Of a DNA stretch of 64,000 nt, positions 1,735-52,623 are shown piece by piece. The notes below the pieces were generated by a model. The model had not been told where the DNA came from. It searched no databases and saw only the letters and a program-made list of their open reading frames with translations. Source of the stretch: Sparassis latifolia (taxonomy: Eukaryota > Basidiomycota > Agaricomycetes > Polyporales > Sparassidaceae); assembly GCA_018466975.1 (NCBI GenBank), contig CM031561.1, positions 3,162,001 to 3,226,000 on the forward strand. The letters are read 5' to 3'. Position numbers and translations under genes: made by a program. Numbering within the stretch: position 1 is the first letter of the stretch; each line of letters opens with the position of its first letter.

Positions 1735-1746
1735 TCAGCTCCCATC
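1735..1746 (-). other. Polypurine tract of the chromovirus
   Basis: On the minus strand the bases directly before the 3' LTR read GATGGGAGCTGA. Ten nearly identical bases stand before the 3' LTR of the non-coding LTR element at 13235-13244. Confidence 0.6.
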
Positions 1747-1781
1747 TAACGTTTCTTGTCCCACAAGAAATATTGTGATCT

Positions 1782-2525: not shown

Positions 2526-2551
2526 TGATGATATGTCGTTTTCTCCTCCTT

Positions 2552-2864: not shown

Positions 2865-2881
2865 TCCGGGTTTCTTCTCCT

Positions 2882-6172
<3,291 letters not shown>

Positions 6173-6189
6173 GATTTCTCTGATAGATT

Positions 6190-7976
<1,787 letters not shown>

Positions 7977-8047
7977 GCGATGTGCTGGAGCACTATTCCA
8001 CCAAGATTATGGGGAAGTGTCCTTTCAAATTCCTCTGGGAGTAGTCA

Positions 8048-8212
<165 letters not shown>

Positions 8213-8529
8213 CTATGTCTACACGTAGACTGCACACCGCCCCAACTAAGTGGGTTCGCTCGTCATCGGCTAACAAGCCCGTAGAGTGTCTTCTGTCTTC
8301 AAACTGATACACCTATTTGCTGATTGCTCGAGTGATTACCTCAGCCTCCTCGGCCTATTGGTCTCTCGGACAGACCCCTCTCCGAAGATGAGTGATCAGT
8401 CTATCCCTTCAGCTACCTCGATTACAGAGTAATCTCAAACGGTGCTTTTAGCAATCGAATCGGGTGTATCGTTCAGTCTTCAAGGTTCGGTCCGGTCGGT
8501 AGTTTATTGTTAGACTCTAGGAAGTCACA

Positions 8530-8553
8530 GAGAGTAATAAGATCTCGACCTAA
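8530..8553 (-). other. Primer-binding region of the chromovirus
   Basis: Directly inside the 5' LTR; on the minus strand it reads TTAGGTCGAGATCTTATTAC. It does not begin with the TGG expected for priming by the CCA end of a tRNA. The non-coding LTR element at 10,223 has the related TTAGGACAAGATAATTATTT in the same place. Confidence 0.5.
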
Positions 8554-9196
8554 TGTTACGCGGCAGCGAAACACGAGCGTCTAGTCGAGTCGTCACGAGA
8601 CAAGGTCTTAGTCTAAGACACAAGTCCGTTCAAGTGGCACTTCTGGCGATGTCCTCGCACTGAAGGTCGATCAGAGTTCGTTCTTATGACTCGTAGTAGC
8701 TGTCTGCTACTGACGGTCGATCTCAGTCAAAGGCAAGTGAAAAGCTGGTTTAATGGTAACCAGGTCGAGATGGGGATCCAGCTCGACAAGGTCGTCTACT
8801 TATACAAAAGGTATCCACAGTACTATGCAGTAATGCAGGATCGTTCATTGGCTAGATAAGGTGAAACGATGTCTAAGCAGGGTAACAGCGAGGAAGTAAT
8901 ATGTATGGGAAAGCTGAGTAAGGTCGTGAGAGATAATCAGTACTAATGGGGATAACGAGTCGTGTATCAGAACGAGGTAAAGATGAGGCATACATGCACG
9001 TCTTGCATGTGCGATGAGAAGAAGGTCCGGAGTTGGATCCGGTGTAACCCTAGACTAGGGGTTCTGGACATCTGGATAAAGAATCGGAGGTTGCGCTCCG
9101 ATGAGTCACGTGTTGGATCACGTGGTCTGGTAATGTAAAGGGAACAAGGAAAAGAAAAAGAAAAGATGTGCCACAAGCGTGAGGAGCGTTGTAACA
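8554..9196 (-). repeat. 5' LTR of the chromovirus (right copy)
   Basis: 643 bp, the partner of 1092-1734, followed by target duplicate CCTGG at 9197-9201. As the upstream LTR it should hold the element promoter. Comparison with the left copy by eye gives nine differences, all transitions, six at CpG or its deamination products. Confidence 0.92.
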
Positions 9197-9201
9197 CCTG
9201 G

Positions 9202-9405
9202 AGCTTTTTACGCTTGTGTCTCTTGAGGTGCATACAACACATATACTGACACTTGGACGTGAAAAGCTTTCCGAGTTCTCAGACTTTATGGATGTGAGTT
9301 TAAATGTTATAATTAGTTTATAAAAGTTTGACTAGTAAAATAGCAATATCGTGCACAGGTTGATGATAAAAATAGCAAAAACTGGGACTTTTCAAAAATG
9401 CATAC
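9202..9405 (+). pseudogene. Plavaka transposase remnant, middle part
   Basis: The short stretch between the two LTR elements continues the Plavaka gene. The segment before 9400 reads about NSKNWDFSKMH in the expected frame, and the same peptide continues after the second insertion at 14,067. An intron-like AT-rich stretch lies near 9292-9358. The last five bases, CATAC, are the target duplicate of the second element. Confidence 0.65.
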
Positions 9406-22135: not shown

Positions 22136-23102
22136 ATGGCCACTACTACCGCTCCCATGACAGAGGGGGTGATCCCTTTCACATACCAGGGGGAAGAATA
22201 CCACACCTACTACAAGGTCTTTGGTGACCTCACGCCTCCCACCAAGATGCCGTTGGTTGTTCTTCATGGAGGCCCTGGGCTCTCTCACGACTACCTCTTA
22301 CCCATATCCGATCTCGCTTCAGAGTCCATTCCTGTCATCTTCTATGATCAGATTGGCAATTCTCGGTCATCGCACCTGAGGAACAAACCACCTTCCTTCT
22401 GGACGATCGACCTCTTCATCGACGAACTCGTCAATCTGCTCAACCGTTTTTCTATCCAAGACTCCTTCAGCCTTTTGGGACATTCCTGGGGAGGGATCCT
22501 GGCGGCCGAGTATGCGGTCCGTCGGCAGCCGCCCGGCTTGCGACGCCTCATCCTTGCCGACTCTCTCCCTTCATCTAGCTTGTGGAACAAGTCGACCGCG
22601 CAGCTCATATACACCATGCCTAAGGAAGTCCAAGAGGGGATGGCATGCGGATTAGAGAATCCACGCAGGTTCAAGGCGGCGTTGGCGCAGTTCCACGCGC
22701 AGTACTGTTGCACCACGAAGCCATTTCCCAAGGAGCTCGCGCACTCATTCGATCTTGTGTTCGGGCCCCACGGCGATCCTACTGTCGCGCACGCGCCGTA
22801 AGGCGTCTTTGATTCCACCTTGAGCCTTCCACTTACGTTCATCGTTCTGCAGGTTACTCAAAAAATGGTCCATCATTGATCGCCTCCATCTTCTGCGCAT
22901 GCCCACGTTGGTGATAAACGGGCGCAAGGACATAGCCCAGGATTTTGTTGTTGAGCCGTTCTTCGACAACATACCCAAGGTGAAGTGGGTCACTTTCGAG
23001 AATTCGAGTCATACACCGTTCTGGGAAGAGCGCGAGAGATTTATGCAGCTCGTAGAGAGATTTCTCACTCCAGAGTCGTACGCAGAAAGGAATGTTATGT
23101 AG
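22136..23102 (+). CDS. Proline-iminopeptidase-like alpha/beta hydrolase (S33), copy 1
   Basis: 303 residues from two exons, 22136-22797 and 22853-23102; the 55-bp GT-AG intron is phase 2. The oxyanion box HGGPG is at residues 44-48, the nucleophile elbow GHSWGG has Ser117, the acid Asp is in INGRKDIAQDF and the His in SSHTPFWEE, a complete S33 triad. No signal peptide is seen, so the protein should be cytosolic. The family removes N-terminal proline or other residues from peptides, or acts as an amino-acid amidase. Three other copies lie in this window (28.7, 37.4 and 47.6 kb) with the same intron position. It starts directly at MATTTAPMTEG; the fuller copies start the same way. Confidence 0.92.
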
Positions 23103-28688: not shown

Positions 28689-29410
28689 TTACAACTTGAG
28701 GAACTCAGCGACGAGCTTCATGAACTTTTCTCTCTCCTCCCACTGGCAAAAGGTGTGTGGCTGGAGTTCTCGAAGGTGACCCACTTGACCTTGGAGATCT
28801 TCTGGAAGAAGGGCGCGACGACGAAGTCTTGCGCCATGTCCCCGCGCCCATTGATGAGGAACGTGGGCACGCGGACAAGGTGCAGGCGGTCAATGACCGT
28901 CCAATCTTTCATGATCCTGCAATCGCGATAAATTTCTACTGCACGGAAAATTGATCAACGAGGACTTACGGAGAGCTGCTAACAGATGTATCAGCGTCGT
29001 CCGCAAGATTCTGATTCAAAGAGTAAACCAGCTCAGCCGGCACTGGCTTCACTGTGCATCCATGAATGGCGTGACGGTGGAACTGCGCTTGCGCGGCGAG
29101 GTATTTCACCCTATCCTACTTCTGCATCGCCAGCCCCTCCTGCGCCTCCTTGGACATGTTCTGCGAGAGCTTCGCACACGGCTCCTTCCACAAGCTGAGC
29201 GCTGCGAGCGAGTCCGCGAGAATCAAGCGGCGCAGCCCCGCATGTTGCATGCGCACCTCGAACTCCGAGGCGAGGATCCCACCCCACGAGTGCCCGAGGA
29301 TGTCGTAGGAGTTTTGGATCGAGAAGTGCGTGAGCACGTTCAAGAGCTCGCGAACGTCCAGAAGGAGGGCGGCTTCTCGGGGAGGTGAGTGGAGCGCGCG
29401 TTCCCAATAT
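28689..29410 (-). pseudogene. S33 proline-iminopeptidase-like pseudogene, copy 2
   Basis: Minus strand. The first ~70 codons (oxyanion box included) are missing. The remaining protein reads from IGNAR (about 29,410) through the intact elbow ILGHSWGG to ADSLAALSLW. Codons between SFWTF and ELLNVL are deleted, a TAG interrupts after EGLAMQK (about 29,117), and a one-base loss in the T run near 28,754 shifts the frame at SHTPF, after which the normal WEEREKF ending is out of frame. The intron before the last exon (about 28,920-28,973) is at the family position. Not functional. Confidence 0.85.
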
Positions 29411-30664
29411 CAGAAACTTGCACCACGAGTAATTCAATAACACCCACCTCTTCAGCCATAGGAACTCCTGAGGCAATATTCCACGGCAGGTTTCAAGCAA
29501 GTCCAGACAGGAATCAGGTTCAAGTACGTGGCAAGGCAGTCAAGACAGACCTTCAGAAATAAGACAGTTCCATGCTGGTGAGCCGTTCAGCGAGTCCTGT
29601 CATCCTTACAGCCTATTTCACCCCAATGCTTGTCATGATCAGTATCCAATATTCAATATTCATGTTCCGCACAGCACAAAGTTTCATAACTCTATTATTA
29701 CGAAGTCACATCCGAGACACTCGGACAGTCAGAGAGGGCGCCGGCAACTGCCTGCCGACGGTGTCCGCTTTGGCAACCGTACTGTTCGAGTGCTTTCGGC
29801 ACGCTTTCGGCGTCAGTTTGCCATGTCCTCGTTACGCACCCGATAATAGTTTTCCTACTCAATCCTTTCGACGTCGTGGTACAACGCAGACTGGGGCGAT
29901 CAGAATCCTGATCAAAATCAGTATTGATAAGCTCAAGCAGCCCTTGCCAGCTGGAGGTTCTACCGAATCAGGAATAAGTGCATCCTTTCTCTCTCAACGG
30001 CGTGGTAGGTCTACTGCTAGATTTTGTAACCAGGTATCAGGTAACAGACCTCATGCTTACAGGGACTTCGCAGGGGTGATGTTGCCGCCGATTGGATTGC
30101 GAAAACGCGCCGCTTGTCATTTTGACAAATGCAATCAAGGCATGTCGACTTCCATTACAACCTGTTCTTCTGCCGCCTGCGCGTAAACGCAGGCACGATT
30201 GTTGCGTGCGGCTCCAATTCCCAGTGACATGCTAGTAGGCCTTACAGGACACGTACGGCATCAGTGTACTGAAGTCTCTGGACCCTTCGAACACCGACCT
30301 AGTCTCCCGCTGGTCTTCACCCTCTTATGCTCTAAGACTTCTTAAGCTTCGACGGGCGTTAATTGAAGGTGTGAGTCTTGGAGATGTATGGTAACCCAAA
30401 ACAGCGCAGCGCCCATCCCCTCGTGTCTCGGTGATAACGTCAGTTGCCATGTAAGCTCCGTTCTCGGATGCACATCCACATGTGCCCATAGTTCTGGTCT
30501 ACAGCATCTGCTATATAAGTGCCATCAACGTCGAGAGATGTGCGAATCCTCTCTTCGATAGGCGCTACCCAGCCAGACAGATCCACCGTAACTCACCCCG
30601 CGTCGTTGCCAATCCGCAATTCTCGGTCACCTGGAATTCGACCGTGCCCCACCGTTCATGCACC
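29411..30664. other. No supported gene
   Basis: Between the S33 pseudogene and the dynamin-like gene. A plus-strand frame at 29,572-30,186 shows no domain, no typical intron signals and atypical composition; I treat it as chance. The proximal part before 30,665 should hold the promoter of the dynamin-like gene. Confidence 0.5.
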
Positions 30665-35083: not shown

Positions 35084-36290
35084 CTATGCCAAACGGTTAA
35101 CCGTCATATCCGAGGCCTTAGTACGGAGATTGGGATACGATCCACCCTTGAACGTCATCATCGACAGGTCATTTGTGAGATCAGTCCCGCCAGCCGTCGT
35201 CGACCGTCCCGTCTCGTCGCGGAATCTGAGCGCGGAGAGGTTTGCCTCTGTGACTGTCTCGTTCGACCATGCACGCCCAAGACTAACACGGAGGATCACG
35301 AGCTCCGGTGCGATACACTGTATGACTACGTGAGTGACCTTTACACCACCGGAACCAGAGCAACAAATAGGCGCACTGCAATTTGGGAAACCAGAGGAAT
35401 GAACAAATTCTCTGCCGTATTCCCTAAGCCGTAGAGGATAATGAAGACCAAAGAAACGAGACCGTAGGGAAGTGCAGATTCCAGCAGCATCGTGGCAATG
35501 CCAGTGTAAGTCTTTCCGTATTTCTTTCCGAGGGGCGTATTGATAATCTGCCGACGCATCCAGAAAAGACGCGTGATGAGGAGAATGGTAAGTAGGATGT
35601 TGAGAGACATTGACATCGACCAGTAAGCAATGGAGAAGTTAAGCGTTGCGCTGGCCCAGAGGCTTGAAGCTGGCTGAGCGGCCTGAACGGTAGTGAGTAT
35701 GGATAAAACTGGATGATAGAAAGTGGTTAATCAAGCGGGCCAATGGAGAAGGACATTATGACTCACTAGTCGATGCCAACCACATCAACGTTGGAATCAC
35801 TACGATATACCACTTCCTCCAGATAACGTGGACGCGGTAAAGCTTGATTCCACGGTAAATAATCGAAATGGAAAGTTTGCTAGTGAATTTCCTCACCAAG
35901 GACCCGTCGGCTAAGAAGGTAGAGACGAGAGTCGCTGAGTTACCGAGGGTGTTTATGGGGAGTGCTTGCTGCTGCATTAAAAGGCAAGCGCACGCGAGCT
36001 CGCTGAAATGCATGTTGATACAGATGTTGATGCTGGCCAAAACGAACAACATCGTGACGAAAGCCAGCCATTTCCAATTGTTCTTCTTTTTTTCAAGAAT
36101 TAGATAGTATACGCATGCGAAGTAGACGACGATGTGTACGCCTACGGTGAAAGCAGGATCATGAGCGGATGCGACGAGCGAAGAGCATTCACCGACCGTA
36201 GGCGACACAGCCAATGAAGACAGCAGCAAGGTTAGTCTGCTCAAACCAGAGATCGGGGGCTGGTTCATCGGTAGCATACGGATTGGTCAT
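35084..36290 (-). CDS. Seven-transmembrane fungal protein, copy A
   Basis: Five exons: 36290-36197, 36141-35897, 35842-35767, 35708-35377 and 35317-35084; 326 residues with all GT-AG introns keeping frame. Seven hydrophobic helices can be traced: FIGCVAYGVHIVVYFACVYY, LAFVTMLFVLASINICINM, TLGNSATLVSTFL, WYIVVIPTLMWLAST, MSLNILLTILLITRLF, ESALPYGLVSLVFIILYG and FIPLVSQIACIAPELVILRV. The C-tail is cytosolic-looking (AWSNETVTEANLS). The N-terminus MTNPYATDEPAPDLWFEQT is polar. It matches copy B (50,811-52,013) exon for exon; exon 1 is 94 bp and exon 3 76 bp in both. An uncharacterised basidiomycete 7-TM family with GPCR-like topology, but no recognised receptor motifs. Confidence 0.8.
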
Positions 36291-37377: not shown

Positions 37378-38314
37378 CTACAGGTCGAGAAACTCGCCAA
37401 CGAGTCGCATGAATTTCTCCCTCTCCTCCCAGAAAGGGGTGTGGCTCGAGTGCTCGAAGGTTACCCATTTGACCTTCGGTATGTTCTTGAAGAAAGGTGC
37501 GACAACGAAGTCCTGCGCGATGTCCTTTCGCCCGTTCACCACAAACGTGGGCACGCGCACAAGATGCAGGCGATCGACAATCGACCAATCTTTGAGGATG
37601 CTAGATTCGATTAGAGTCAACAGAGCTACAGAACAGAGAAGGAAAGCCTTACGGTGCAGTGGCGACAGTGGGGTCCCCATTCTCTCCGAAGACCTGGTCA
37701 AAAGAATACGCCAGTTCCTTCGGGAACGGCTTCGCCGTGCAACCGTGAACTGCGTGAAACTGCGCTAAAGCAGCTCGGAACTTCGTCGGGTCTTTCATCC
37801 CACCAGCCATACCCTCCTGGACGTCCTTCGGCATGTCTTGCAACAGCTGCATATTCGACTGGTTCCACAAGCTGGACGCTGCAAGGGAGTCTGCGATGAT
37901 GAGGTGTCGCAAGCCGGGAGGCTGCCTGCGCACTTCAAATTCGGAACCAAGCACTCCGCCCCATGAGTGGCCCAAGAGATCGAACGAGTCCTGGATCGAG
38001 AAGTGAGAGAGGAGGTTCACGAGCTCGTCAATGAAGAGATCGATACTCCAAAACACAGGGGGCTTGTCCTTGATATGCGTGGAACGCGCGTTCCCAATCT
38101 GATCGTAGAAAACTACGGGGATAGACTTGTTGGCGAGGTCGGAAAGCGGAAGGAGGTAGTCGTGCGAGAGACCTGGGCCACCGTGGAGGACGACAAGCGG
38201 TGTATGCGTTCGATTGGCAAGATCTCCGAAGACCTTGTAATAGGTCTGGTAGGTCTCGCCCTGGTAGGCGAAGGGTATAGTGCCCTCTGAGACTGCTGCA
38301 GTAGTGGATGCCAT
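37378..38314 (-). CDS. Proline-iminopeptidase-like alpha/beta hydrolase (S33), copy 3
   Basis: 294 residues, exons 38314-37653 and 37600-37378, with a 52-bp GT-AG intron at the same phase-2 site as copy 1. All catalytic elements are present: HGGPG, GHSWGG nucleophile elbow, NGRKDIAQDF acid and HSSHTPFWEE histidine. The frame is open upstream of ATG 38314, but homology begins at MASTTAAVSEGTIPF, so that start is chosen and no signal peptide is predicted. It faces a 7-TM gene on the left and a single-TM protein gene on the right. It is the mirror-image counterpart of copy 4 at 47.6 kb. Confidence 0.92.
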
Positions 38315-39583
38315 TCTAACACAGTGTGAATGCAACAAATCGCACGCAGGAGTTGAGATTCCTCCCACCTTTCTGAGTGAGGGCGACGTGTGGCTGGAAT
38401 TGAACCTGAAGGTGCAGACAGATGAATACTGCGAAAAGCTGGGAGGGAGAGCAAGTTCCTGGCCGCTATATGGAGAACACAGTAACCGGAAGACAGCGGC
38501 TGACACTGGGTGAATAATTGTAAAATATACTAGCGGTGGTGCAATTCCTTCACGCTCGAGATACTTCCATGATCTCTGCGGGCTGGAATGGGGCAGGCCT
38601 GTGACGAAAACGCCTCATCGCCCTGCGAAGCACCGATGCAACTGTTTGCAACGTGACTCACTTCTCATACAGCTTCTTCCCACGAATCGTTGACTTGCAG
38701 AAATGATCATCGAAGATGCTCATCTGCAACACCGGTAACTCGACAGAGATGGAAATGGGGGATGCGTATTGGTGGGACAAAACTGGGGTTCGTTAGAAGT
38801 CGCGAAGACACAAAGATGCGAAGATGCGGCACGTCTGGAACCAGTCCGTCGTTACAGTCCTGCCCTCAGAACTCACTCCGGTCATATGGCGAGTACCTAC
38901 CTATCAAAGTGGACGACGGCGCCGGAAAAGCTGCTTCGCGGGAGCTATCGAGTGGCGGTTATCGATCGTTCGTGGCGTTCCTGATTGGGCGCCCGATATA
39001 CTAATCAGAGCTTAACCATTTAGCTAAATATTCTGAAGAGAGACGCTCCGAAATCTTGGGAGAAGCTTCGTCGACTAACGCTTCCTGTGCTCATGATCTC
39101 GGGCTTGTAGTATGTGGTGCGATTGAGTGAATATTACGGAGTGACGGTGCGTCACTACATGCACGCCTAAGATTGAGTGCAGTCATCATTGAATATTATT
39201 GAACGTTGAATTGGAGGGGCGATTGCAATGGAAGCAGAAGCAAATGCTGGTGCTGTTGGCTGTATGGATCCGAAGCTGTGGGGTCCTTATGGATCCGAAG
39301 TCGTGGGGCCCCGCCGTGGTGCGGCGGAGTACTGATACTGAACAGGTTCGGATGAATACCGTTGCACACAGACGTGTCAAGCCTTTGGACAGCAGGGCTA
39401 CTATTATTCGCTCGTGAGTACTGTACTTGAGTCTCGATTGAGGTTAGCATCCAACAATTCGTGACTTGATACATCGAGATTTTAGTAACCGTGTTGACAT
39501 TGCGCCGAGTGCGTCTGGTAGATAGCATAGGACATCACCTTCCCTCGACGATTGAGCTCTTCGTTTGTTGCTGCGTCACCGTC
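38315..39583. other. No supported gene; divergent promoter region
   Basis: 1.27 kb between the divergent S33 gene and the single-TM protein gene. Short frames only. Around 39,230-39,310 short direct repeats occur (TATGGATCCGAAG twice; TGTGGGG/CGTGGGG). Confidence 0.5.
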
Positions 39584-40621
39584 ATGCGTCGTACACCAGA
39601 GTATCTTCCTCTGTCTTCGTCTGCCGTCGATTTAGATTGCCAGAGCGAACTCCCCGAGGATGGAACAAAGACTTGGTTGCGGGCACGCATCCCAGGTGAG
39701 TGTCCACATCCAAACCCATTTGTACACTTCATGTCGTGGTCAAACAGACACTACGAACAGCCTTGTCTTCTGGTCCTGCGTTTCCGTAATCTGCTCGTCC
39801 ATTCTCTCCTTCACCCTGTTCACGTACGGCACGGTCATCGCAGCGCCCCAGCATCTATCGTCCTCTAGGGGACAGGCATTGCGCCGACCGAACCCATACG
39901 TGAATCACGACAAGGTGCTGCAGAATGTGACATACACCTTCCCTCCAATCGTCAATTTTCCACCTCTCGTGTTACAGATCAGTACCTTTGATCGTCATCG
40001 CACTATGCGCGAGGATAGTAGACAATGGCATTCACGACTTGGTACGGTGTACCCGCATGACCGTCATATTACTGTCTCTCATGAGGTGCGCGCCCGCGAT
40101 GCAGCTGTCGTTCCAGGATGTCGGAAATATGATGAACTATTTCTCTAGACGTCCACGATCCTGCAATTTCGAAACCTCGACTATGCCATGGAACGTTGTG
40201 TACTCACTCTCACACTTCCGCTCAAAACGGATGTGCTTGATCCTGCCATTTCCATCCACGATCCAAGTATTTTGGATGTGTGGGTGTTGAACGCTTCCTT
40301 GGAGCTTTCGCCACATATCACAGGCACATGGAAACATGCACCGGCGCGCCGATCGCTACTTGCTACGTTCGCAGTCTCTCTGGATAATCTAAGTTTATCT
40401 GGGGAGTTTCATTGCCCATCGGAGGAGTTCACAACGCTGGAGCTCGCTTGTTCTTCCACCGTCTCAGCATGCCGCGTCGACTTTTGGCAAAACCTGAGGT
40501 TGGTTCCCATCGGAGGTGAGCGCTTGAGTATTGAGTATCCTTGGCGAACAGGCAAAATGCTCAATTTTCCGCAGGAATCTACATCACGCAATCGCAGTCC
40601 GTATTCGGTGGCTCGGGGTAA
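39584..40621 (+). CDS. Single-pass membrane protein, uncharacterised basidiomycete family
   Basis: 287 residues in four exons, 39584-39695, 39748-40085, 40149-40515 and 40575-40621, with GT-AG introns in frame. A short cytosolic N-terminus (MRRTPEYLPLSSSAVDLD) precedes one TM helix (LVFWSCVSVICSSILSFTLF), then a motif RRPNPYVNHDKV and a beta-rich outer domain (FRNLDYAMERCVLTLTLP, SILDVWVLNAS, LSLSGEFHCPSEEFTTLELAC, ACRVDFWQN). Many agaricomycete genomes carry this type without known function. Four cysteines of the outer domain are paired in sequence. Topology would be type II, with the C-terminal domain outside or lumenal. A truncated relative lies at 42,945-43,220 on the other strand. Confidence 0.72.
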
Positions 40622-41948
40622 CCAAGGAAGCCGTCGACTCCGAGCTTAGACAATCGATCGTTTTATCAGTAGAATTGGAAGAATGTTCGGCTAGATCCGC
40701 GTTAAGTGATTGCATAAAAATCTGTCGGAAAAAAATAAGGTGCCGGATCTTGCCTGACAACTCCTTATTTGAGACTTATAACTGTCTTGTGGGGGACAAC
40801 AATGGTGCTAAAATTACTCAAAATGCCCTAGGGAGGTCAAAACACGCGTCGCAACTGCCTTATCAGGCATGAAAGGTTTTTCCGACACAGTTCACAGGTT
40901 GAATTGCACAGGTACTCACGCGTACCCCCTGATCTGGTATTCACATTTATGAGCGTGCCCCGTCAACGCGGGATCCACAAAATCAGTAGGTTTGCAAACA
41001 ACGATGGACAGCGCGCCTAGATACCGAATTTCAATTTCAGTATCCGGCGCGCAGTTGGCATCATACGTCTCGTCACTGCATCAATCATATCCTGGCCACA
41101 ACGGACGCCATAATGAGCGCCACGACGTCGTCGGTGATATCAGTCGATTACACGCGTTCAAGCATTGGTGAGAGGTGCACTATGGGTCGGTGCTCAGCAT
41201 TTGAATAATTTATTCTGTCGGACTACTCCGTAGTAGATAGACATCAGGGCCCCTCCCATCGGATATATATCGAGAAGTCCCTTGGCAAGAAGCTACCTAC
41301 CTATAGCGGGTAGTGGCCAGGAACTTTCTCCTTGTTGTACGGGAATGTAGGCTGTGGCGTGCTGGACCGCCGAGTGACGCCCATGGCACCGAAGAGTAGG
41401 TGTATGGGCGTACGGCGGCGATGGCGACTGACAACATTTGAACTGCCTTCATAGAGTCTGGTCTGTCCGGAAGTTCCTTTGCAATACCGAAGCTTCTTGG
41501 GGAATCGGTTATCAGCGGGCCTCCTGAGAATCACCCTCAGACGACAGCAATTCTACAGTAGCACTCACGTTTTCGCTCTCCTTTAGTGCTATCAGCGAGT
41601 CGAGGATCCTGTCGACGCGGTGACTGACTGCGTCCGTCAACCGGGCGGAAGAGTAGAAACCTTTCAAGCCTGGGTTTCGATTTCTCTTTCGGGTTTCTCA
41701 ACTGAATGCATGCCAAGGATCAACTTTCCTGATATCGAATCTTCCACACCATTCATTTCTATCGTCAACTCCATGGATCGCGCGGATGTCCTCGCGTGTA
41801 CTGCGCACTGACGCAGAAGGTCATGAGTGTATCAACCGGCCTCCGAACTATGTTTCTACTGGCCGCAGTTGATGTCGACAAAATTATCTCCCCTAGATAG
41901 ATCTCCTCATCCCAATTCCCTTGAACATTTGCCAAAATATTGACCGCC
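40622..41948. other. No supported gene
   Basis: 1.3 kb of intergenic DNA with only short frames. It should contain the promoter of the UstYa-like gene at 41,949. Confidence 0.5.
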
Positions 41949-42610
41949 ATGCGCCAGCACGTCCAACTCCCCTTTGCACTCATTGTTTGTGGAGTTTGCG
42001 CACTCACTGTATCCCTGCTTGTGCACATCACCAGCGCGATACAGTACTTACACTCACAGTCCTCACTTGGTCAGTATCTGTCTCCGCGATGTGGACACAT
42101 GATGTCTGACTATGTACTTCGATTACAGGACAGACCCGTGTGGCCGAGTTTTCTATCCCCATACGCTATGCTGCACTCTCCACGGTTAAATCGCCTCGCT
42201 TGGGCCTTTACGCTTCGGATGCGGAGTGGCGCTCTTTACTCCCGTCTGGTGAAGGCTTCCTGTACCTCCCGAGCGATGGCGAGCATTACCTCGTCTCACA
42301 CTACCATCAATTGCACTGTCTGCGGTCTCTGCGGATGTACTTCCTTAAGCATGACAATCTCTCCGAGGCCGACTGGGGCCACGTCGATCATTGTCTCATA
42401 TATTTGCACCAGATGCTCCTGTGCAATGTCGACCTCACCCTCGAGCCAGCTAATCATAAACAGTTGACGCCTGACGGGAGGCTCACGAATGCGGTAACAG
42501 GGATAGATGTCACGCATCGCTGCAAAGATTGGGCGCAGGTCAGAGGTTTCATGGAGAGTAACTACGAGCAATGGGGCGATACTTACAAGACAGAAGGGAC
42601 GTCACCGTAG
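41949..42610 (+). CDS. UstYa-like (DUF3328) protein 1
   Basis: 200 residues, exons 41949-42069 and 42129-42610; the 59-bp GT-AG intron is phase 1. One N-terminal TM helix (LPFALIVCGVCALTVSLLVH) is followed by a lumenal domain with both family motifs intact: HYHQLHCLR (H-x2-H-C) and DHCLIYLHQMLLCNVDLTLE, and a C-terminal THRCKDWAQVRGF. UstYa-family proteins (first known from ustiloxin B biosynthesis) are membrane-anchored oxidases that crosslink or otherwise modify ribosomal peptides in the secretory pathway. It is one of four in 8 kb. Length and intron position match the other copies. Confidence 0.9.
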
Positions 42611-42944
42611 AGTAACTGAAGCCGAGATAGAGTGTAATTGCAAGCTTGCTGTGTATTATTTATCGTAAAGTTTTTCAGGTCGAACACTGCGGGTTTCTTG
42701 TTTGCATTCTCTCATTCGCGAACACTGGTTGCTGCTGCTCAGTGCTCTCCGAGAAATTCATACTGCGGACGAAAATCTCAATCTACATATTTCCGGCGAG
42801 GGGTACATCAGAAGTACCGTGTTATCTACATAACTTCTACATACTCACTGGAGACAGTCAGGGTCGCGATTAATACGCAGACATGGGCGATGGGACAAGA
42901 AACTCACAACGAGACCGAGCACGACATACAGCTCAATGTTCTAC

Positions 42945-43220
42945 GCGGGGCAGACCTGCAAATATGTCCGGGCGCGGTAGGTCCTCGATGGCGACGGCAC
43001 CGGTGCGGGTATACTGAAACCCGTCGATGGTAGCCGCAAGATTGATCGCAGCGAAAAGCATCGTCAACGCGCAGAGGATGTACAATAGCACTATCATCCT
43101 ATGGGATAAATTTGCGGCAGGAATACCGGGCGGGGCGAGCTCCTCGGATGAATGAACCAGCTGTTTCATTTCGTCGTCATCGTCGGAGGTGCTCGGGAGA
43201 GCACTGTAAAGTGATTTCAT
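42945..43220 (-). pseudogene. Truncated relative of the single-pass membrane protein
   Basis: Minus strand from ATG 43220: a polar acidic N-terminus (ALPSTSDDDDEMKQLVHSSE), one TM helix (MIVLLYILCALTMLFAAINL), then DLPRPDIFAGLPR and a donor GTAGAA at 42944. Organisation and the RP-D/N-P/I-Y/F motif match the gene at 39,584. No continuing exon with the beta-rich domain is found before 42,610; the best acceptor leads to a stop within eight codons. It is probably a gene remnant, possibly a membrane peptide if translated. An alternative upstream ATG exists at 43,310. Confidence 0.5.
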
Positions 43221-45236
43221 GGCTGAGAAAACTCTACGCATATCAAGGGGAATTTGAATGAGCCTAGTTTCCATGTCGTTGGTAAGCATTTCTACTCTAC
43301 AACACAGCAAGGGACATACCTTGTCTGCGAGCTTGCGATGCAGATGTAGAGCCTTGGTGCTCGATAATCCTTTTAACAGCGTCTTATCTTCAAATGCTCG
43401 AACACAAGTCTCGGGGAACTAGCACTTAAGCAAGAACGTACCAGTGAATGGAGGTGATAACTTTCGATCTGGTAGAATCACCACATCACCGGAAAAATCC
43501 ACGAATCATTATCATATATGGTAGTAACGTTACATACACATTTTCAGTCGCCGCCGTATGCTCTACGTGTTATCAAATGGAACAACAGAGAACTCCGGAG
43601 GAAGACCGCTTCGAGTTAGAGTAGTATACAGCGTTACCAGACGTAGAAGACCGGCCAACTCGGTCAGAACCACAGCTCGCACCCTAGTAGATTTAGATGC
43701 TCGAGTTACTTACTGTAATTTCAATGATCAGTATAGCTGCCCCCGAATACCTACACTGGCAGATATGATGACTCTGAGCGGCGTGGAAGCTAGTTTAGGA
43801 GATGTTTTCACAACTCACAGTTCACGAGTCCATGCAAAGCCGTACATAATACTTACGTAAATTCCAGCTCTCGCGGACTCTCACGGGTGCTCCGTCGCAA
43901 TTCTAAACGAACTTTCTCCAATATATACTGCTCTTCATACAATTCGAACCACTGGTCACGACGTACAGCCAAGGAAAATACAGTACTGAGTGTGTTGACG
44001 CGTAACAAGGAAAGAGAGCAGTTATAATCAGTTATGAATTTGTGAGAGGTGATATCGCACTTAAAATATATATCCTTGCTTTTGCACAACAGCTGAACCA
44101 GAGCTTGAATGAGACAATATAACTTAAGCTAGTCGAGGCTCATGATTTGCTCTCCCCGGATGTATTTCTCCCACAAATTCAGCATACAAAGAGTCCCACT
44201 CAATATAATCTAATCACAGTGCAGGATGCGCGAGACACAAATCGGGTACATCCGGTCACAGTAGTTGAACAAATATGTGACGATTTTGCCCCCCCACTCG
44301 GCACCTGTTTATAACCTCCCTCCACTTGGGTCCCTCCATTTAGCTACTTCATAGATATCCTTCATCGTACATCCACAGCATTTTTGAGCACGAACGAGGG
44401 TGAATGGCCTAATATTGGATGAGTCTCTTATCTTGTGCACGTCACGCTGAAGTCACTCTCCGGCTCACGCTGTGATGGAATTTGGCGGGGCTCCAGCCTT
44501 TTGAGGTGTGTTACTATGTGTGACACGAGCGTGATGACCGAGTAGGCCAGGCATAATTGTGGTTTCCCCTGATAACACTGTATCATAATCGAGATCTCCG
44601 ATCATCTTCATCCACAGAGGACCCGAGAGGGCCGGCAGCGAAGCCGCGGCGCCCAAAATTCCCTTTTTGGTGGCTGACGATGAGGTAAAACGCGGACATG
44701 GACCGAAAAAATAGGTAGTGATGCCTCTTTTTTGCGGACATTTCTGGTCACAAATGGCACATTTCTAACGGACAATTTTTGGTCCTCCGGATCAGGCATC
44801 TTGGGGGTTCCTACCCGCAGTGAATCGGCTATACTCAATCAAAATCAGATAAGGTATTGCTTCCTCCGTTAGTAATGTAAGAAGGGTCCACATCTTCTGT
44901 GATAATGCGTGGCATCTGTTGGAACGGTATACACACGAATAACTGTCGGCTGAAGGCTGGAAGCCCTAGAGGTGGACCACTAGAATTCCACCTCCATCTG
45001 ATACGTTCATCTAGAAGGTACGTTGATATGATATTGATTCTTTACAGTGAGACATCATGATTTGTTACTTGTTCAGGTCGTGAGTATCGCACTCAAAAGA
45101 GGACTGAACATGTGGTTGAGGTCCGGTACCTCTGGCTTCGTGCAATTTACATAAAGTTCAGCTCAGTCTTGGATGTTCTTCCTGGAGTTGTCACCACTGC
45201 CTGCGTACTTGTCCTCTTATCCTCGCTCAACCCAAC
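43221..45236. other. No supported gene; upstream region of the small secreted peptide gene
   Basis: 2 kb of relatively AT-rich DNA with short frames only. Runs CCCCCCC at 44,288 and AAAAAATAGG near 44,705 are low-complexity. The last 200 bp should hold the promoter of the peptide gene at 45,237. Confidence 0.5.
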
Positions 45237-45444
45237 ATGCTTGCATTCCGCAGCCTGATGTTTTTCATTGCCTTCATTGCCCTAGCCAAGGCCTCTCCGG
45301 TATCGCAAGGTGAGGATTGTTCCGCAAAATAGTGGATTGGCAAAAATCGCTAACATCATCACAGTTGACGATGTTGACTGCGACGCCGAGGATATTGCGA
45401 AGCGCGGGGAAATTGTTGGCCCTGGTCTAGCACTGTGTTTTTGA
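45237..45444 (+). CDS. Small secreted peptide precursor with Kex2 site; candidate RiPP precursor
   Basis: 50 residues in two exons, 45237-45309 and 45365-45444, with a 55-bp GT-AG intron at phase 1, too short to appear as a single open frame. Residues 1-19 form a signal peptide (SLMFFIAFIALAKA core, likely cut near ASP). A short acidic propeptide containing DCDAEDIA ends in KR at residues 37-38, a Kex2 site. The predicted product is the 12-mer GEIVGPGLALCF. It lies between UstYa-like genes 1 and 2. Fungal dikaritin-type RiPP precursors have this layout, usually with several cores; here there is one and it lacks Tyr. It could instead be an unmodified secreted peptide. It ends Cys-Phe, so it is not a CaaX pheromone precursor. 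Confidence 0.55.
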
Positions 45445-45850
45445 GGTGAAATGGTTGACCTACATTCACAGCATCCTGATGCTGACCCACTTCGTTTGCT
45501 GTAGCACCATGTCTAGGCCTCGCCAGTACTAGATGATAGGTCATGCATTTGAGGGAGTTAGTTCCGGAGTCAGTAGCGCACCCGTGTATCTCCGCCATTA
45601 AGTGATGTTCCCTCGTGACTTCTTGTCAATAAACAACCTGTTAAGAGTGTTTCTACAAACATGCAATGATATAAGCGCTATTCTGTAATTCCATAAGTAC
45701 CCAGACTCAGATAAGGAGGGCTATCCCGTCGTTCGCATAATATCCACGAGCACAAACTTCTCGTGCACAGTTTGGTGAGATCACAACATTGTATTCTCGC
45801 CCCTTGTTCACCGAGGACTGATATCCAGACACATTCATGCAGAGAACAGC
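45445..45850. other. No supported gene
   Basis: 400 bp between the peptide gene and UstYa-like gene 2; it must contain the terminator of the first and promoter of the second. Confidence 0.5.
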
Positions 45851-46533
45851 ATGAATTTATCATTAGCAATGTTCCGGCTCTCCGCCGCGGTTCTCATGCT
45901 CATCGCGACTATTGCTTTCGCGATTTTCATGAGCGGTCATCATCTTCAGCTACGGACGCAGGAAAGAGGCTCAGAACACTTATACAGTAAGCAAGGCATT
46001 TTTTTGGCTTCCTCGGCCATGGTTGACCCCTCTAAACTGGCTAAGCTTTCCTAGGGAATGACTATCCCCAAGCGTGGCCCCTCCCTGCATTGATACCGGT
46101 TCACATGTCTCACGAGGATAGCGTGCACTACGACTTCGAAACACCAATAGGTGACGCCGAATGGAACGCCACCTTGCCTAGCGGAGGAGTGCTCCTGCAC
46201 CTCGGCCCCAAGCTCCGTCCCTTCTCGCTCTCCATGTTTCACCAGATGCGCTGCCTCAACATCATTCGCGGGGGCCTTGCTGCCCTTTATGCAGACGGGA
46301 CTCCGGGTGCACGACTGCGACAGCCAAATCTCACGAGGCACTGCATGAATTATCTGCGACAAATGGTGCTTTGTCGAGCGGATCTGCGGTTAGAGTCGGT
46401 GAGAGCGCCGAGGGGATATAAGTTGGCAACATCTGAGGTGACACACGCGTGTCAGGATTGGAATGCGGTGTACTCTGCGGCGGAAGAGAACTATGCTCAA
46501 TATCTGATCACGCTGGAGGAAGTAGACGAGTAG
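45851..46533 (+). CDS. UstYa-like (DUF3328) protein 2, first metal-type motif altered
   Basis: 204 residues, exons 45851-45986 and 46055-46533; the 68-bp GT-AG intron is phase 1 as in the other copies. N-terminal TM helix (AVLMLIATIAFAIFM). The first family motif reads MFHQMRCLN, where the second His of H-x2-H-C is Arg (codon CGC); the second motif RHCMNYLRQMVLCRADLRLE is intact, as is THACQDWNAVYSA. The change suggests altered or lost activity, or a partner role in a heteromer, as UstYa-type enzymes often act in pairs. A second in-frame ATG lies six codons downstream. Confidence 0.88.
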
Positions 46534-46641
46534 ACGCTAGTGTTTACTGCATTGACTACAGCGGAGGGAGAAGCTGGAGACAGAACGATATTGTAGACAA
46601 TCAATATGGCGTAAGGCACACTATGGCCTTCTCACTCCTGT

Positions 46642-47332
46642 TCAAAAAAGTAAGGTAAGCAATGCTGCAGTACAACACAAGGGACAGTATCTCACAGCAC
46701 TGTTCTCCCAATTGTAATAATTCTCGTCCATCATTTGGAAGACTATACTCCAATCCCTGCATGTATGTGTCGCGCCGAGTCTCTCAACTTCAAAATCCTT
46801 TTCCTCGAAATTCCCAGGCTCCAGGGTCAAGTCAGGAGCGCACAGAATCCCTTGCCGAAGGTAATTCAAACAATGCTTAATGTGCGCTGGAGTCGCAAAG
46901 CGTGCTTTGCCGAATGCAAGGTTGAGCACGCGAAGACAATGTAACTCGTGAAACATTGTGACCACAAACATGCGGTCTTCGGGCCCAAGGCGTACGTAGC
47001 CAGATCCGGGAGACATCGACGAGAACCACTCGATGTCAGAGGGAACACCGAGCAACGGGTAATGCATGCTTTCCTCCACCGTCATTGATACTAGTGGAAG
47101 GTCAGACATGTTCAGCGGGAGTGTCTCCGGGAAATCGTGCCCGTAGTAAGCTGTTGCATTCAAAATTGTCATCCGATGCGTACTTCAGAAACACACACTT
47201 ACAGTATGTTTTGGCCTGCCGTGCAGAACGACCATGGCTAACATAGTGCGCGATGTGTACGAGGTTCAAGCCGCTGATCAGAACGAGGAGGGACGCTACT
47301 GCTCGTCGAGAGAACATACTCGGTGGTGACAT
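46642..47332 (-). CDS. UstYa-like (DUF3328) protein 3
   Basis: 212 residues on the minus strand, exons 47332-47203 and 47150-46642, with a 52-bp phase-1 GT-AG intron. N-terminal TM helix (AVASLLVLISGLNLVHIAHY). Both motifs are intact: MFHELHCLR and KHCLNYLRQGILCAPDLTLE, then THTCRDWSIVFQ. The C-terminal tail (YCPLCCTAALLTLLF) is extra, hydrophobic and Cys-rich, not seen in the others; the end may have been changed by a shifted stop. Tail-to-tail with UstYa-like gene 2 (109 bp apart) and divergent from the S33 gene at 47,637. Confidence 0.9.
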
Positions 47333-47636
47333 CCACGATGCAATGCTTAGCTAGCACGCCGTCGTCGGCTACAAGAGAATATCGTCAGTCGCGCCGCCTA
47401 ATTCAGCCGTTCATCAACTTGATGAACAGCCGAATGAAGGTTGTGACTGTGGGTCCAACAAACCTTACTGAGTCTTGAACTTTATTCTGTCATTGTTTGT
47501 TTGCCCACAGAAGGATGCGCAAAGATGCGAAGCATCCGAACAGTGTCAGTGCACGGGGACTTCAAGAGAAAGTCTGCAAAAGGCATACGCATGCTATAAA
47601 GGTCTACCATTATCTTGCCACATTAACAGCGCTACA

Positions 47637-48650
47637 ATGATCCAGAAGAATCGTTACTGCACCAAGTTGCTCGCCCTCTTCTCCTCCTTCGCTTGCCTCG
47701 GGGGAGCAGTCAACGACATACCTATTACCGAAGGCACCATCCCCTTCACGTACCAGGGAGAGACGTATCAGACGTACTACAAGGTCGTCGGTGACCTTGC
47801 CACAGTAGATGGCTCCAACACTCCACTCGTCGTTCTTCACGGTGGACCGGGCCTATCCCACGATTACCTCCTCCCCATCTCCGACCTCGCCATCAAGGCA
47901 TCCATCCCTATCGTTTTCTATGACCAGATCGGAAACGCGAGATCGACGCACCTGAGAGATAAACCGTCCTCGTTCTGGACCATCGACTTATTCGTCGACG
48001 AGCTTGCGAACCTCATCTCCTCTCTCTCTGTTCAAAACTCGTTCGCACTCCTGGGACATTCTTGGGGTGGTGTTCTCGGCGCCGAGTTCGAGGTTCGCAG
48101 ACAGCCAGAGGGACTCAGGTACCTCATTCTATCGGACTCGCTCGCTGCGTCGGATCTGTGGAGCCAGTCCACTGCGATGCTGGCGCGGTCCTTCCCGAAG
48201 GCCGTGCAGGAGGGTCTGGCGGCGGGCATGACAAACATGGAAGAATTTCGCCCGGCATTGGCGCAGTTCAATGCAGTTCATGGTTGTACTGTCAAACCAG
48301 TTCCCAAGGAGATGACCTACTCCTTCAATCAGATATTCGGACCGAATGGCGATCCCACTGTCGCTCGCGCCGAGTGAGTGTAATTCTAAGATTGCATGGC
48401 TTGAGCTGAACGAGTCCATTTGCACAGTATATTGCAGAACTGGACAATTATCGACCGCTTAGATCTCGTGCGCACATCCACGCTCGTGATCAACGGTAGG
48501 AACGATATCGCACAGGATTTCGTCGTTGCGCCGTTCTATCAGAACATCGCGGAGGTGAAGTGGATTACCTTTGAGCAGTCGAGTCATACACCATTTTGGG
48601 AGGAGCGAGACCGTTACATGCAGGTTGTTAGCAGCTTTTTGCGTCCGTAG
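47637..48650 (+). CDS. Secreted proline-iminopeptidase-like hydrolase (S33), copy 4
   Basis: 319 residues, exons 47637-48373 and 48428-48650 (54-bp phase-2 GT-AG intron, same site as copies 1 and 3). It differs at the N-terminus: MIQKNRYCTKLLALFSSFAC followed by LGGAV is a signal peptide, so this copy should enter the secretory pathway. The triad is intact: HGGPG, GHSWGG, NGRNDIAQDF and SSHTPFWEE. The position among UstYa-like genes and the secretory route fit a role in trimming a secreted peptide, but its substrate is unknown. The frame continues upstream of 47,637; this ATG is chosen because the signal sequence begins there. Confidence 0.9.
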
Positions 48651-49306
48651 ACGTAATATTGTGTGGCCACACCTCATAGCAAACATCCAAATATGACGTG
48701 AAGAGATACATTGCTGGTTTCAGGACCCCGACAAACTGTGCAAACAAACTGCGTCAGTGAATTGTGCACAGAGATATTAATTGCAAGAAAACACCCAGAG
48801 AAGGGATGAAAACTCTCTACGCTGGAGAGTTGGTCCTATAGACCCTACAAGACATGTTACATGTCGATGTTATCAGACATGGAGCATATGGCAGCTTGAT
48901 AGAAGACAGATGCCACGTACAAGTTGGATTCTTCAACCCGGGCACAAGTAGCGCGCCTACTAGATTGGAACGACATTATAGAAAATGTAGCTCCGCCAGT
49001 CTACGGATTGATACCGGGAGCACACAGGTACACCCGCTGCTTGCCTGTTGGACACGTGTTCCAACAGAAGTCTGTTCCAAGGCGAGAAGGATGTCTTCAG
49101 AGTTCGTCTCTATACAGCGTCTACTCACCAGAACCCAGAATTCCGGTAGAAAAATCAGTTCAACTAACCAGGTGATGTACATTAGACCGGGGATACTGGA
49201 ACAAGACGGGGTCATCGGGTAACGCGCATCTAACTACTCTTGGCACTTCATAAGACTTACAGAAGCTCGAGCACTCCCCGCCTCGCACATCGTCACGACC
49301 CAAAGC
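48651..49306. other. No supported gene
   Basis: 650 bp between the secreted S33 gene and UstYa-like gene 4; short frames only. Confidence 0.5.
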
Positions 49307-49975
49307 ATGCACAAGCATCACATCCTCCCCAACAGCGTGATTCGAGCAGTGATAATTGCGCTCGTTGTCTCGCTGGTCCTTAACACCATCGGCACGTTCG
49401 TGCAAAGTGAGTTTCGCTCCCTAGTGCCGCGTACAGTGTAGTTAATCGTCGCGCATTCAGGTGGCAAATCGAGTACACACATCCGCGCACTCACCAGATT
49501 GCCCATCAGGGTCCGCCCTGTAGCACTGGAAGTTGTCGACTCCGATCGATATGGCATGGATGACGACAACGACTGGGCATCCGTCATCCCGTTCGGACAC
49601 GGATTCGTCCGCCTGGGGGAAAACGACGCTTATTACGCGGTTTCGATGTACCACCAGATTCACTGTCTCAACAGCTTTCGCAAGATGTTTAATGGACATC
49701 GCAACGAAAGCCGTGCGACACACGACGCTGGACACGCCCTGCATTGTCTCACATACCTGCGGCAGATGGTACTGTGCAGTGCTGATGAGACGCTGGAGCC
49801 CGCTTTCGCTGCCCTCAACGTTGACGGAAGAAAGACGCAGGCGGCTTACGGTTCAGGGGTAATTCACCAGTGTCGGGATTGGGTCCAGGTGCGAGAATAC
49901 GTCGAGCGTAACTACGAGGAGTGGAAGGATGATGATCATTACGCGGTTACAGAGGCTAGTGCAGTGGCAGAATAG
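49307..49975 (+). CDS. UstYa-like (DUF3328) protein 4
   Basis: 204 residues, exons 49307-49406 and 49461-49975; the 54-bp GT-AG intron is phase 1. N-terminal TM helix (VIRAVIIALVVSLVLNTIGT). Motifs intact: MYHQIHCLN and LHCLTYLRQMVLCSADETLE, then IHQCRDWVQVREYVERNYEE. The acidic loop DSDRYGMDDDNDWASV precedes the first motif. Together with copies 1-3 it defines the UstYa cluster; it lies beyond the S33 gene, next to 7-TM copy B. Confidence 0.9.
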
Positions 49976-50810
49976 ACGGTACCTTGCTTACTATCATAGT
50001 CACAACTTACAAAGTCATGATTCAGAACATCACGAATAGCCACACTTTCTTGATTCTCGCTGAACTACTATGCGTGCGCGCAAGTACTGGCATCATCATG
50101 ATGGTGTTGCGAAATATCTGATCAACTTTCCGGTAAGGCTGGTGAAGTTGTTGTCGTCTATTTGTGCACTGAGCCAGTCGGCGGTGGGACATTAATATTG
50201 TTCTTCTCCTGCCTCATGCTACCCACAGGCTTGCTTTCAGTGGATTCTTCGGAACCCAATAAATGCATCCCGATGCTCATACGCCGAATGTCCATCTCAT
50301 CATTTACCCAGGTCACTGTCTTGTCAAGGATTTGGGGTTATGATAGCTTTCATCATCCGTTATAATGGAAGCCTCTACGTTACGACACCCGCGAATGTGT
50401 ACTACTTATGCATCTGCGAAGCCGTATCCCTCGTGGCACACTGTACGTGTCTTCTAAGAATATCAGATCGTCCGATGGTACGGGATGGAGTACATCCATA
50501 CAATGCAGATGTGGGTGTGGTTTCTGAATATCCGAAAACGTGATGTTCTCACCCCAGTTCCGCCTGGATGCGATGGTCGCATCTCTGTCAATTGTCAGAA
50601 GGGGTCTTACATAATGATTATCCATGCAACATCCTCTTCGATGAGATGGAGGCTTTGATACCGGATTTACTGTGAATTCCGTATTCCCAATGCGGTTTCA
50701 ATATGAGCGGCCCTGTATGTCCAAAGATGTTTGTCAAACCGCGCAGAGACGAGCTATATCATGCTGAAACTAACGAGTCTCTGCAACCCCATGCGCCTCG
50801 GGCCCTCGGA
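49976..50810. other. No supported gene
   Basis: 835 bp between UstYa-like gene 4 and 7-TM copy B. Short frames only. The in-frame ATG at 50,703 upstream of the 7-TM gene is not favoured because homology to copy A starts at 50,811. Confidence 0.5.
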
Positions 50811-52013
50811 ATGTCTACCTCGTACGCCACAGATGAGTCTCCGTCGCAGCTTTGGTATGAGCAATCTATCAATGCTGCCGTCTACATCGGCGCAATGGCA
50901 TGGGGTATGTCGTACTGTTATGCTGCCCTCCCATGGTTATTGATTATATTTGACTGCGCAGGGGTACATACGTCGGTCTTCTATACGGCCGTCAGATGTA
51001 TCCTCCAGAATCAGAACCAGAAGAGGCGTTTTATATGGCTTCCCTTTGTTTGTGCACAGTTCACCATGTCGACGGTGAACATTATTTGCAGCATCAATTT
51101 CAATGAACATGCGTGGATTGACGAGCGCAACTATCCCGGTGGCCCACTTGCCTTCATCGTCGAACGGCAGTCTCTACCGGTCAATACTGCTTCCATTGCA
51201 GCCTCGGTCGTCACAATCTTCCTTGCTCAAGGATTCTTGGTGAGCACGATTATCTCTATTATCGTTCTATTCCTTATCACAATATCCTAGATTTTTCGAG
51301 TGCACGAGCTATGGAAGAAGGCTTACATCACACTTTGCTTGATCCTTGTCTTACTTGCATCGACAGGTATGGTTCTCAAATTCTATACACAGTGCTACGG
51401 TCGACGCGTTCCGCAGTCATGTCTGTCCTCCACTGCATACAGGCGTCTCGTACATCTTCTGGCCTATGGGATCAATCTACCCTCAGCCTATCGGTACCCT
51501 TCGCATCGCTAGCCATGTCTCTGAACATCCTCCTCAGTATCTCCCTTACGTGGCGGCTCCTGGACCTCCGCCGTCAGCTTCCCTCTGTGATCACCGATCA
51601 CTTGAAGGAAACCTACACCGGCTTTGAAGCTCTACTGGTAGAATCCGCACTGCCATACGGTATTGTCTCTTGCATATTTGTAGTACTATATGGGCTGCAG
51701 AACGCCGGTGCAAATCTCTGCGTTCCGTTACTCGTGCAATTGGAGGCAAGTCATGCAGCTCGTTCATTTCTTCCTGCGCTCATGGTTGGCGACGGTGCAG
51801 GGTATCGTTCCAGGATTGGTTATTCTGCGCATTGTCCGCGGATACGCTTGGTCAATGGACATTGTTCGTCGGGTTGGTCCGGCAAATATTACTTTCCGGG
51901 GTTCTCTCGGTCGCCCTGTAGATTTTTCTGGGACGGACGAAGTGTCATTGGCGACGCTTAACCTCCCGTCGGGACACTCGTCGGATGCGAAGGTGCCCTC
52001 TGATCTGGTCTAA
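50811..52013 (+). CDS. Seven-transmembrane fungal protein, copy B
   Basis: 329 residues, exons 50811-50904, 50962-51239, 51291-51366, 51417-51745 and 51801-52013. The start is set by alignment with copy A (MSTSYATDES versus MTNPYATDEP). Exon lengths 94 and 76 for exons 1 and 3 are identical to copy A. The last intron (51746-51800) starts GCAAGT and ends GTGCAG, a GC-AG intron at the same place as a GT-AG intron of copy A; no GT in the area keeps frame. Seven TM helices as in copy A (MSLNILLSISLTWRLLDLRR, ALPYGIVSCIFVVLYG, IVPGLVILRIVRGYAW). The tail is Ser/Asp-rich. Uncharacterised; GPCR-like topology only. Confidence 0.8.
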
Positions 52014-52623
52014 ACGACTGCCGGTGTTTCGAAATTACGCACCTGTATTATAATGGTATGGTTGTACTTTCATAATGCGGCAATTATCTGTGGCTATGGT
52101 GCCTTAGTGCTATTGAGAATGTGAATTCGTGATTTAGTCCCCATTCTACGACAGGTATCAGCAAAGGAGTGCTAGTACCGACGCGGACGCGCGGTTGACG
52201 TGAGTTTATTGCTCTGCTTGAATACGTTGTCATACTCAATATTAACTCAATATATGTACGTAGCTCTACGGCACTTCACGCCTTTGATCAAGAGGATCCT
52301 GCGTCCCACCTTCGTTCAACGTCGAGTCGACTCTCTCAATGAAAGTTCTGAAATAGACCATATGAATGCAGTGGAAATAACAATTTCGAACTCTTCAGAA
52401 GATGATACTCACAGTTTCATGGACGCCGGCCAGGACACATCAGACTAACAGCTATTTTATTCTGAACGGTTCCAAAATTCTAGTCTCCCAAGGCAGACTA
52501 CAAAATCATCCCTCTTAGTGGGGAAGGGGACGGGATGATACCAAAACCCCAAATCATTGTCCATGGTAAGTTCTAAAATATGTATGCTCGGTTTGTCGTT
52601 CTCATCGTGACGTTTGTCTGCTG
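52014..52623. other. No supported gene
   Basis: Contains an 82-codon plus-strand frame (52,200-52,448) with an acidic Ser-rich end (ISNSSEDDTHSFMDAGQDTS). It may be an eroded fragment of another gene, but no family is recognised. Confidence 0.45.

Follow-up and report, generated by a model that had tools for sequence, protein, structure and literature searches.

The closest described systems are the dikaritins (ustiloxin, phomopsin and asperipin-2a), whose gene clusters resemble the locus analyzed here in having UstYa (DUF3328) proteins with HxxHC motifs, a signal-peptide precursor with a Kex2 site, and a clustered peptidase (PMC12048977). The presence of two HxxHC motifs has been proposed as a mark of RiPP-related DUF3328 proteins (PMC12048977), and the UstYa family is described as having a dicopper active site and carrying out O2-dependent cross-linking (PMC12186524). 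Victorin, a RiPP that has been grouped with the dikaritins (PMC10512285), derives from a multicore precursor, is chlorinated, and contains a ring that joins the side chain of a C-terminal Phe to an internal Leu (PMC9233826). DUF3328 genes are the most frequent genes adjacent to those of Kex2-repeat precursors (KEPs), being neighbors of 1758 of 7878 of them overall and of 103 of 1680 in Basidiomycota, where DUF3328-linked precursors are few; Tyr is present in 65.6% of the repeated sequences of KEPs with DUF3328 neighbors (Umemura 2020, PMC7329392). In Pleurotus, 16 UstYa-like genes 'probably involved in dikaritin production' have been reported, six of them developmentally expressed (PMC8893723, eLife 2022). 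The pairing of UstYa and precursor genes is therefore known in basidiomycetes, and the original prediction that the combination at the present locus is undescribed is not supported in this respect.

Surveys of fungal peptides have located precursors through their repeats (PMC7329392, PMC6339444, PMC9769878). The absence of a repeat from a precursor may nevertheless mean that it has a single core (PMC12048977), and a single core was predicted in a Trichoderma precursor (PMC7099791), so that predictions of single-core fungal RiPPs do exist. Among the papers that the literature searches listed, none was seen to describe a basidiomycete UstYa product or a single-core UstYa precursor.

The stretch of DNA that we analyzed, hereafter the window, spans 64 kb (C10:3162001-3226000) of the 41.4-Mb genome of Sparassis latifolia, which is assembled in 22 contigs. 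A cluster between positions 41949 and 49975 holds, in this order, UstYa A(+), the candidate precursor(+), UstYa B(+), UstYa C(-), a peptidase(+), and UstYa D(+) (Table 1). The exon borders of UstYa A-D, the peptidase, and gene E were placed by hand, and signal peptides and anchors were called by eye, without a trained predictor; called in this way, the precursor, the UstYa proteins, and the cluster peptidase each have a signal peptide or a signal anchor. The gene content first read from the locus, with four UstYa-like genes inside 8 kb, a short precursor with a signal peptide and a KR site between A and B, and a signal-peptide S33 peptidase between C and D, was borne out: all four UstYa models exceeded the Pfam cut-off for PF11807 (UstYa, DUF3328; 25 bits), the precursor resolved into two exons encoding 50 residues, and the peptidase has a hydrophobic leader and matches proline iminopeptidases.

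Table 1. Features of the locus, with positions in the 64-kb window
Feature	Position	Exons	Strand	Characteristics
Third intact proline iminopeptidase	22136..23099 (approximate end)		+	No signal peptide; 65% identity to cluster copy
Broken proline iminopeptidase remnant	28721..29492		-	In-frame TAG
Second intact proline iminopeptidase	37381..38320 (approximate ends)		-	No signal peptide; 71% identity to cluster copy
But2-like type II membrane protein E	39584..40649	39584-39695, 39748-40085, 40149-40649	+	PF09792 16.7 bits
UstYa A	41949..42610	41949-42069, 42129-42610	+	Signal anchor; both HxxHC motifs intact (HQLHC/HVDHC); PF11807 64.6 bits
Short membrane protein	42933..43274		-	N-terminal layout similar to E (LPRPDIFAGL); no C-terminal domain seen
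Candidate precursor	45237..45444	45237-45309, 45365-45444	+	Signal peptide, acidic pro-region, KR, C-terminal GEIVGPGLALCF
UstYa B	45851..46533	45851-45986, 46055-46533	+	HQMRC and LTRHC, 2 of 4 motif histidines replaced; PF11807 58.1 bits
UstYa C	46642..47332	47332-47203, 47150-46642	-	Both motifs intact (HELHC/HIKHC); start at 47332 or 47317 possible; PF11807 65.1 bits
Secreted proline iminopeptidase (S33)	47637..48650	47637-48373, 48428-48650	+	PDB 3wmr_A, E 1.7e-57; signal peptide
UstYa D	49307..49975	49307-49406, 49461-49975	+	Both motifs intact (HQIHC/HALHC); PF11807 77.2 bits
Membrane protein	50676..52448 (approximate ends)		+	Paralogue of 35344-36286 (-) by blastp; earlier read as 7-TM; no Pfam family above cut-off

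PF11807 has at least seven matches across the genome, a lower bound, and four of them fall within the window. The remaining three (C4:1295113, C10:3789170 and C6:275502) are isolated from the cluster and all keep the first HxxHC motif. Both motifs had been attributed to all four clustered genes; an alignment of their second exons upheld this for A, C and D and contradicted it for B. The histidines of these motifs may be copper ligands and, given those missing from B and the dicopper site of the family (PMC12186524), B alone is probably an incomplete oxidase. The closest pair of genes was A and D (48% identity by blastp), and B and C were 33% identical. When the four window sequences served as input, the structure predicted for UstYa D had a mean pLDDT of 43.

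The two exons of the candidate precursor are separated by a 55-nt intron (GT..CAG), with CATAAA at -87 and AATAAA 183 nt past the stop, and encode the product MLAFRSLMFFIAFIALAKASPVSQVDDVDCDAEDIAKRGEIVGPGLALCF. The 12-residue C-terminal peptide past its KR site is GEIVGPGLALCF. There is one KR and one core, without internal repeats and without Tyr, Trp or His, so that neither the repeats between Kex2 sites that characterize KEPs nor the repeated cores of dikaritin precursors are found, the leader and the KR site being present. A genome search with the precursor returned two matches, both to this same gene, and no second copy. With a codon score whose training set included the UstYa genes but not the precursor, the precursor reached 0.096 in frame and fell to -0.32 and -0.36 when the frame was shifted, whereas the UstYa genes scored 0.092-0.134. 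Only 6 of 2216 stop-free 50-codon null frames, which were overlapping draws from ~3.5 kb of presumed non-coding sequence, scored as high as or higher than the precursor. Codon use supports our taking the 50-residue frame as a real gene.

The cluster peptidase matches 3wmr_A in full length (query residues 26-317) and resembles the proline iminopeptidases of PDB entries 3wmr and 7a6g over ~290 residues. We found five copies of the gene, four in the window, one of which is broken, and one on C9. Among the intact copies only that of the cluster has a signal peptide, whereas those at 22.1 kb, at 37.4-38.3 kb, and on C9 appear by eye to lack one. This unique signal peptide is the best sign that the peptidase may have joined the secretory pathway. 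The gene lies divergent from UstYa C, with ~304 bp between them. It also belongs to a block that occurs twice around the cluster, in which the peptidase is joined by the membrane protein and by a third gene (34.4-34.85 and 52.85-53.27 kb). A plain inverted duplication was rejected, as the third gene keeps its strand; the block is a rearranged duplication, and the peptidase and membrane protein may be bystanders. The secreted proline iminopeptidase corresponds to the peptidase or transporter of dikaritin clusters, and a UNC-93-type gene lies at 59.9 kb, at a distance of ~10 kb.

We consider it plausible, with a probability of roughly 55%, that the locus is a small RiPP cluster of the UstYa type, whose precursor has a single core without Tyr. 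This reading is favored by the concentration within 8 kb of four of the at least seven PF11807 genes of the 41.4-Mb genome, by the possession in A, C and D of both of the proposed RiPP-marking motifs (PMC12048977), by the coding signal of the precursor together with its A-x-A cleavage site (a criterion chosen post hoc), and by the location of the only intact peptidase with a signal peptide in the cluster, divergent from UstYa C. The dicopper cross-linking of the family (PMC12186524), the victorin ring (PMC9233826), and the prevalence of DUF3328 genes beside Kex2-repeat precursor genes (PMC7329392) point in the same direction. The reading is weakened by the lack of repeats and of Tyr, which is so common in the repeats surveyed in PMC7329392, by the placement of the peptidase within a duplicated block, and by the absence of a promoter word common to the cluster: no 8-mer was shared by at least three of the six upstream stretches, a level of sharing that the best word exceeded in 182 of 200 random sets.

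Genes, motifs, hydrophobic leaders and anchors, and the KR site are seen directly, and on them we build a conditional account of the order of processing, the chemistry, and the parts that the peptidase and the But2-like proteins would play. The 50-residue precursor would enter the ER, where UstYa A, C and D, as type II membrane oxidases, would oxidize its C-terminal segment, with B acting as a partner that lacks the full motif. Cleavage by Kex2 after KR would release GEIVGPGLALCF, N-terminal trimming would follow and stall at the G-P bond, and the proline then exposed would be removed by the secreted proline iminopeptidase, leaving GLALCF. More speculatively, the But2-like membrane proteins may hold the substrate, or present it, on the lumenal side. 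A Tyr-based ring such as that of ustiloxin or asperipin is impossible in a core without Tyr. Given that Trp and His are also missing, the likely chemistry would be a cross-link from the C-terminal Phe, or from the Cys, to an internal Leu; alternatively, aliphatic residues would be hydroxylated, desaturated or chlorinated. The last six residues of the core may resemble the victorin core, a resemblance that we do not count as evidence. The nearest precedent for a Tyr-free core would be the Phe-to-Leu ring of victorin (PMC9233826), the two ring partners being both present in the core here; chlorination, however, is not readable from the sequence, and the victorin precursor is multicore.

Compared to the dikaritins, the cluster has a single, Tyr-free core in place of repeats and a UstYa B devoid of two motif histidines; a non-exhaustive Pfam scan of 30 window ORFs or models, several of them pieces of one gene, found neither a tyrosinase nor a methyltransferase. 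PF11807 proteins, the class-defining enzymes of dikaritins, are present, and the pathway would work like that of a dikaritin; since it lacks the repeats, we class it as a variant rather than a member. Basidiomycete KEPs with DUF3328 neighbors share with it the gene pairing and the phylum, but they were found through repeats, and a precursor without repeats would be missed. What sets the cluster apart is its single non-repeated Tyr-free core, its secreted iminopeptidase, and perhaps a But2-like partner.

The alternative that survives best is that the UstYa proteins act on a different substrate, which could be an unlinked precursor processed by Kex2 or else a non-ribosomal product, and that the 50-residue gene is their neighbor by chance. 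Cyclochlorotine is a product of the latter kind. In cyclochlorotine clusters, too, DUF3328 proteins are at work (PMC12048977), which counts against the RiPP reading, and the lack of Tyr in the core speaks for another substrate. In addition, no comparable precursor was detected within ~5 kb of the other three UstYa loci, where the only scan hit was the N-terminus of the UstYa gene itself, and UstYa genes in this genome consequently need not travel with a precursor. A scan with loose criteria (a leader, a dibasic site, and a short C-terminus) gave 11 candidates in control sequence that was taken from 20 places and totaled 200 kb, or 0.44 per 8 kb, as well as 7 in the whole window and 2 in the 28 kb surrounding the cluster; with candidates this frequent, the mere presence of a precursor-like frame has little meaning. 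However, none of the 11 control candidates has the A-x-A site of the precursor (again, the post hoc criterion), the precursor resembles the UstYa genes in codon use, and no NRPS, PKS or terpene enzyme was found among the same 30 ORFs or models. A leader hydrophobicity of 2.9 or more was reached by 3 of the 11 control candidates, two of them near-identical, compared to 2.97 for the precursor. Taken together, we regard a different substrate as possible, on the unlikely side. That the 50-residue gene yields an unmodified linear secreted peptide, to which the UstYa proteins are unrelated, is decidedly improbable: several Agaricomycete Kex2-processed proteins do give linear, minimally modified peptides, but their precursors are repeat proteins (PMC9769878), whereas here four UstYa genes flank one non-repeat precursor. 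It is very improbable that the frame is no gene and that the UstYa and peptidase genes form an accidental or ancient association, a reading with which the single genomic copy and the seven loose candidates in the window agree and against which stand the intron signals, the CATAAA and AATAAA elements, and the codon score so seldom reached by null frames.

Under the preferred reading of a RiPP cluster, a UstYa-flanked single-core precursor would explain part of the shortfall of DUF3328-linked precursors in basidiomycetes, and the exact 12-residue sequence provides a search target. A bolder proposal, which we hold to be doubtful, is that of a distinct UstYa RiPP class in which oxidases, a But2-like lumenal protein, and an iminopeptidase would serve single-core Tyr-free precursors, with a cross-link among Cys, Phe and Leu and with the iminopeptidase setting the N-terminus of GLALCF. 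Such a class, if true, would be invisible to repeat-based surveys.

The But2-like component of this proposal is named only for scores against PF09792 (But2 C-terminal domain) that are below the cut-off of 24.2 bits, with an E-value of 0.0097 for gene E and of 0.047 (14.5 bits) for a gene beside the UstYa gene on C4. Gene E has an acidic N-terminus, a TM segment, an RPNPY motif, and a C-terminal domain. A piece of a gene located 2-3 kb away from the UstYa gene on C6 had no match to PF09792, and the mutual matches of this gene and gene E (E 0.12, and 0.058 with 52% over 32 residues) are at noise level, given that in the search that gave 0.058 a C2 match taken for chance scored 0.039. The C4 gene, when searched against the genome, found only itself, and searches of the genome with PF00264 (tyrosinase) and the But2 family gave no match anywhere, the controls being likewise silent, so that these negatives carry no information. 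Gene E and the C6 gene have in common [A/S]MExCxLxLxLP, and the pattern built from them is present at these 2 of 4 UstYa loci and at 0 of 20 control loci; an RP-type pattern matched one control locus and an N-terminal pattern two, neither being specific. The short membrane protein at 42933..43274, for which no Pfam family was found, is either a truncated relative of E or a short gene. A similar gene at C10:3913554 (E 6.4e-4) has no UstYa match nearby, and the But2-like family, if it is one family, extends beyond UstYa loci. By these weak homologies, a But2-like family seems to occur beside three of the four UstYa loci, an association that is new here. Simple arithmetic indicates that even with 50 members in 41 Mb about 1.2% of given 10-kb stretches would hold one, so that, provided the weak links hold, chance would not account for an occurrence at three of four loci. 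A But2-like protein that truly recurs beside UstYa loci would be a candidate partner of these enzymes and a handle for finding clusters.

A duplicated and rearranged block flanks the cluster on either side, and is marked by a pair of paralogous genes, neither of which had a match in the Pfam search, together with membrane proteins and peptidases. The proline iminopeptidase family is locally expanded: of five copies detected genome-wide, four lie within the window, and one of these four is broken.

The membrane proteins listed below share a common layout, composed of an acidic start, one TM segment and an RPxxY-like motif, with a But2-like domain present in some of them but not all. Judged from sequence links that are weak, UstYa genes seem to be repeatedly adjoined by such proteins.

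Coordinates of duplicated and recurrent features (L010, L012 and L043 are other stretches, each with its own coordinates)
Feature	Location	Position
Paralogous gene pair	window	34.4-34.85 kb and 52.85-53.27 kb
Proline iminopeptidase copies	window	22.1, 28.7-29.4, 37.4-38.3, 47.6-48.65 kb
Membrane protein	window	39584-40649
Membrane protein	window	43274-42933
Membrane protein	L010	3103-4174
Membrane protein	L012	~7.7-8.6 kb
Membrane protein	L043	3549-3965
Cu-oxidase match pair	C1	742472/618729
Cu-oxidase match pair	C1	583466/730545
Cu-oxidase match pair	C10	3467308/3569729

Elsewhere in the genome, Cu-oxidase matches on contigs C1 and C10 occur in pairs with identical scores within each pair, a pattern suggestive either of recent duplication of large segments or of sequence duplicated in the assembly.

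An LTR retroelement occupies window positions 1077-9218. Comparison of its two LTRs revealed near-identity (639 matching positions, 10 mismatches and 3 gaps), and its insertion was therefore recent; by eye, we read the element as Ty3/Gypsy type.
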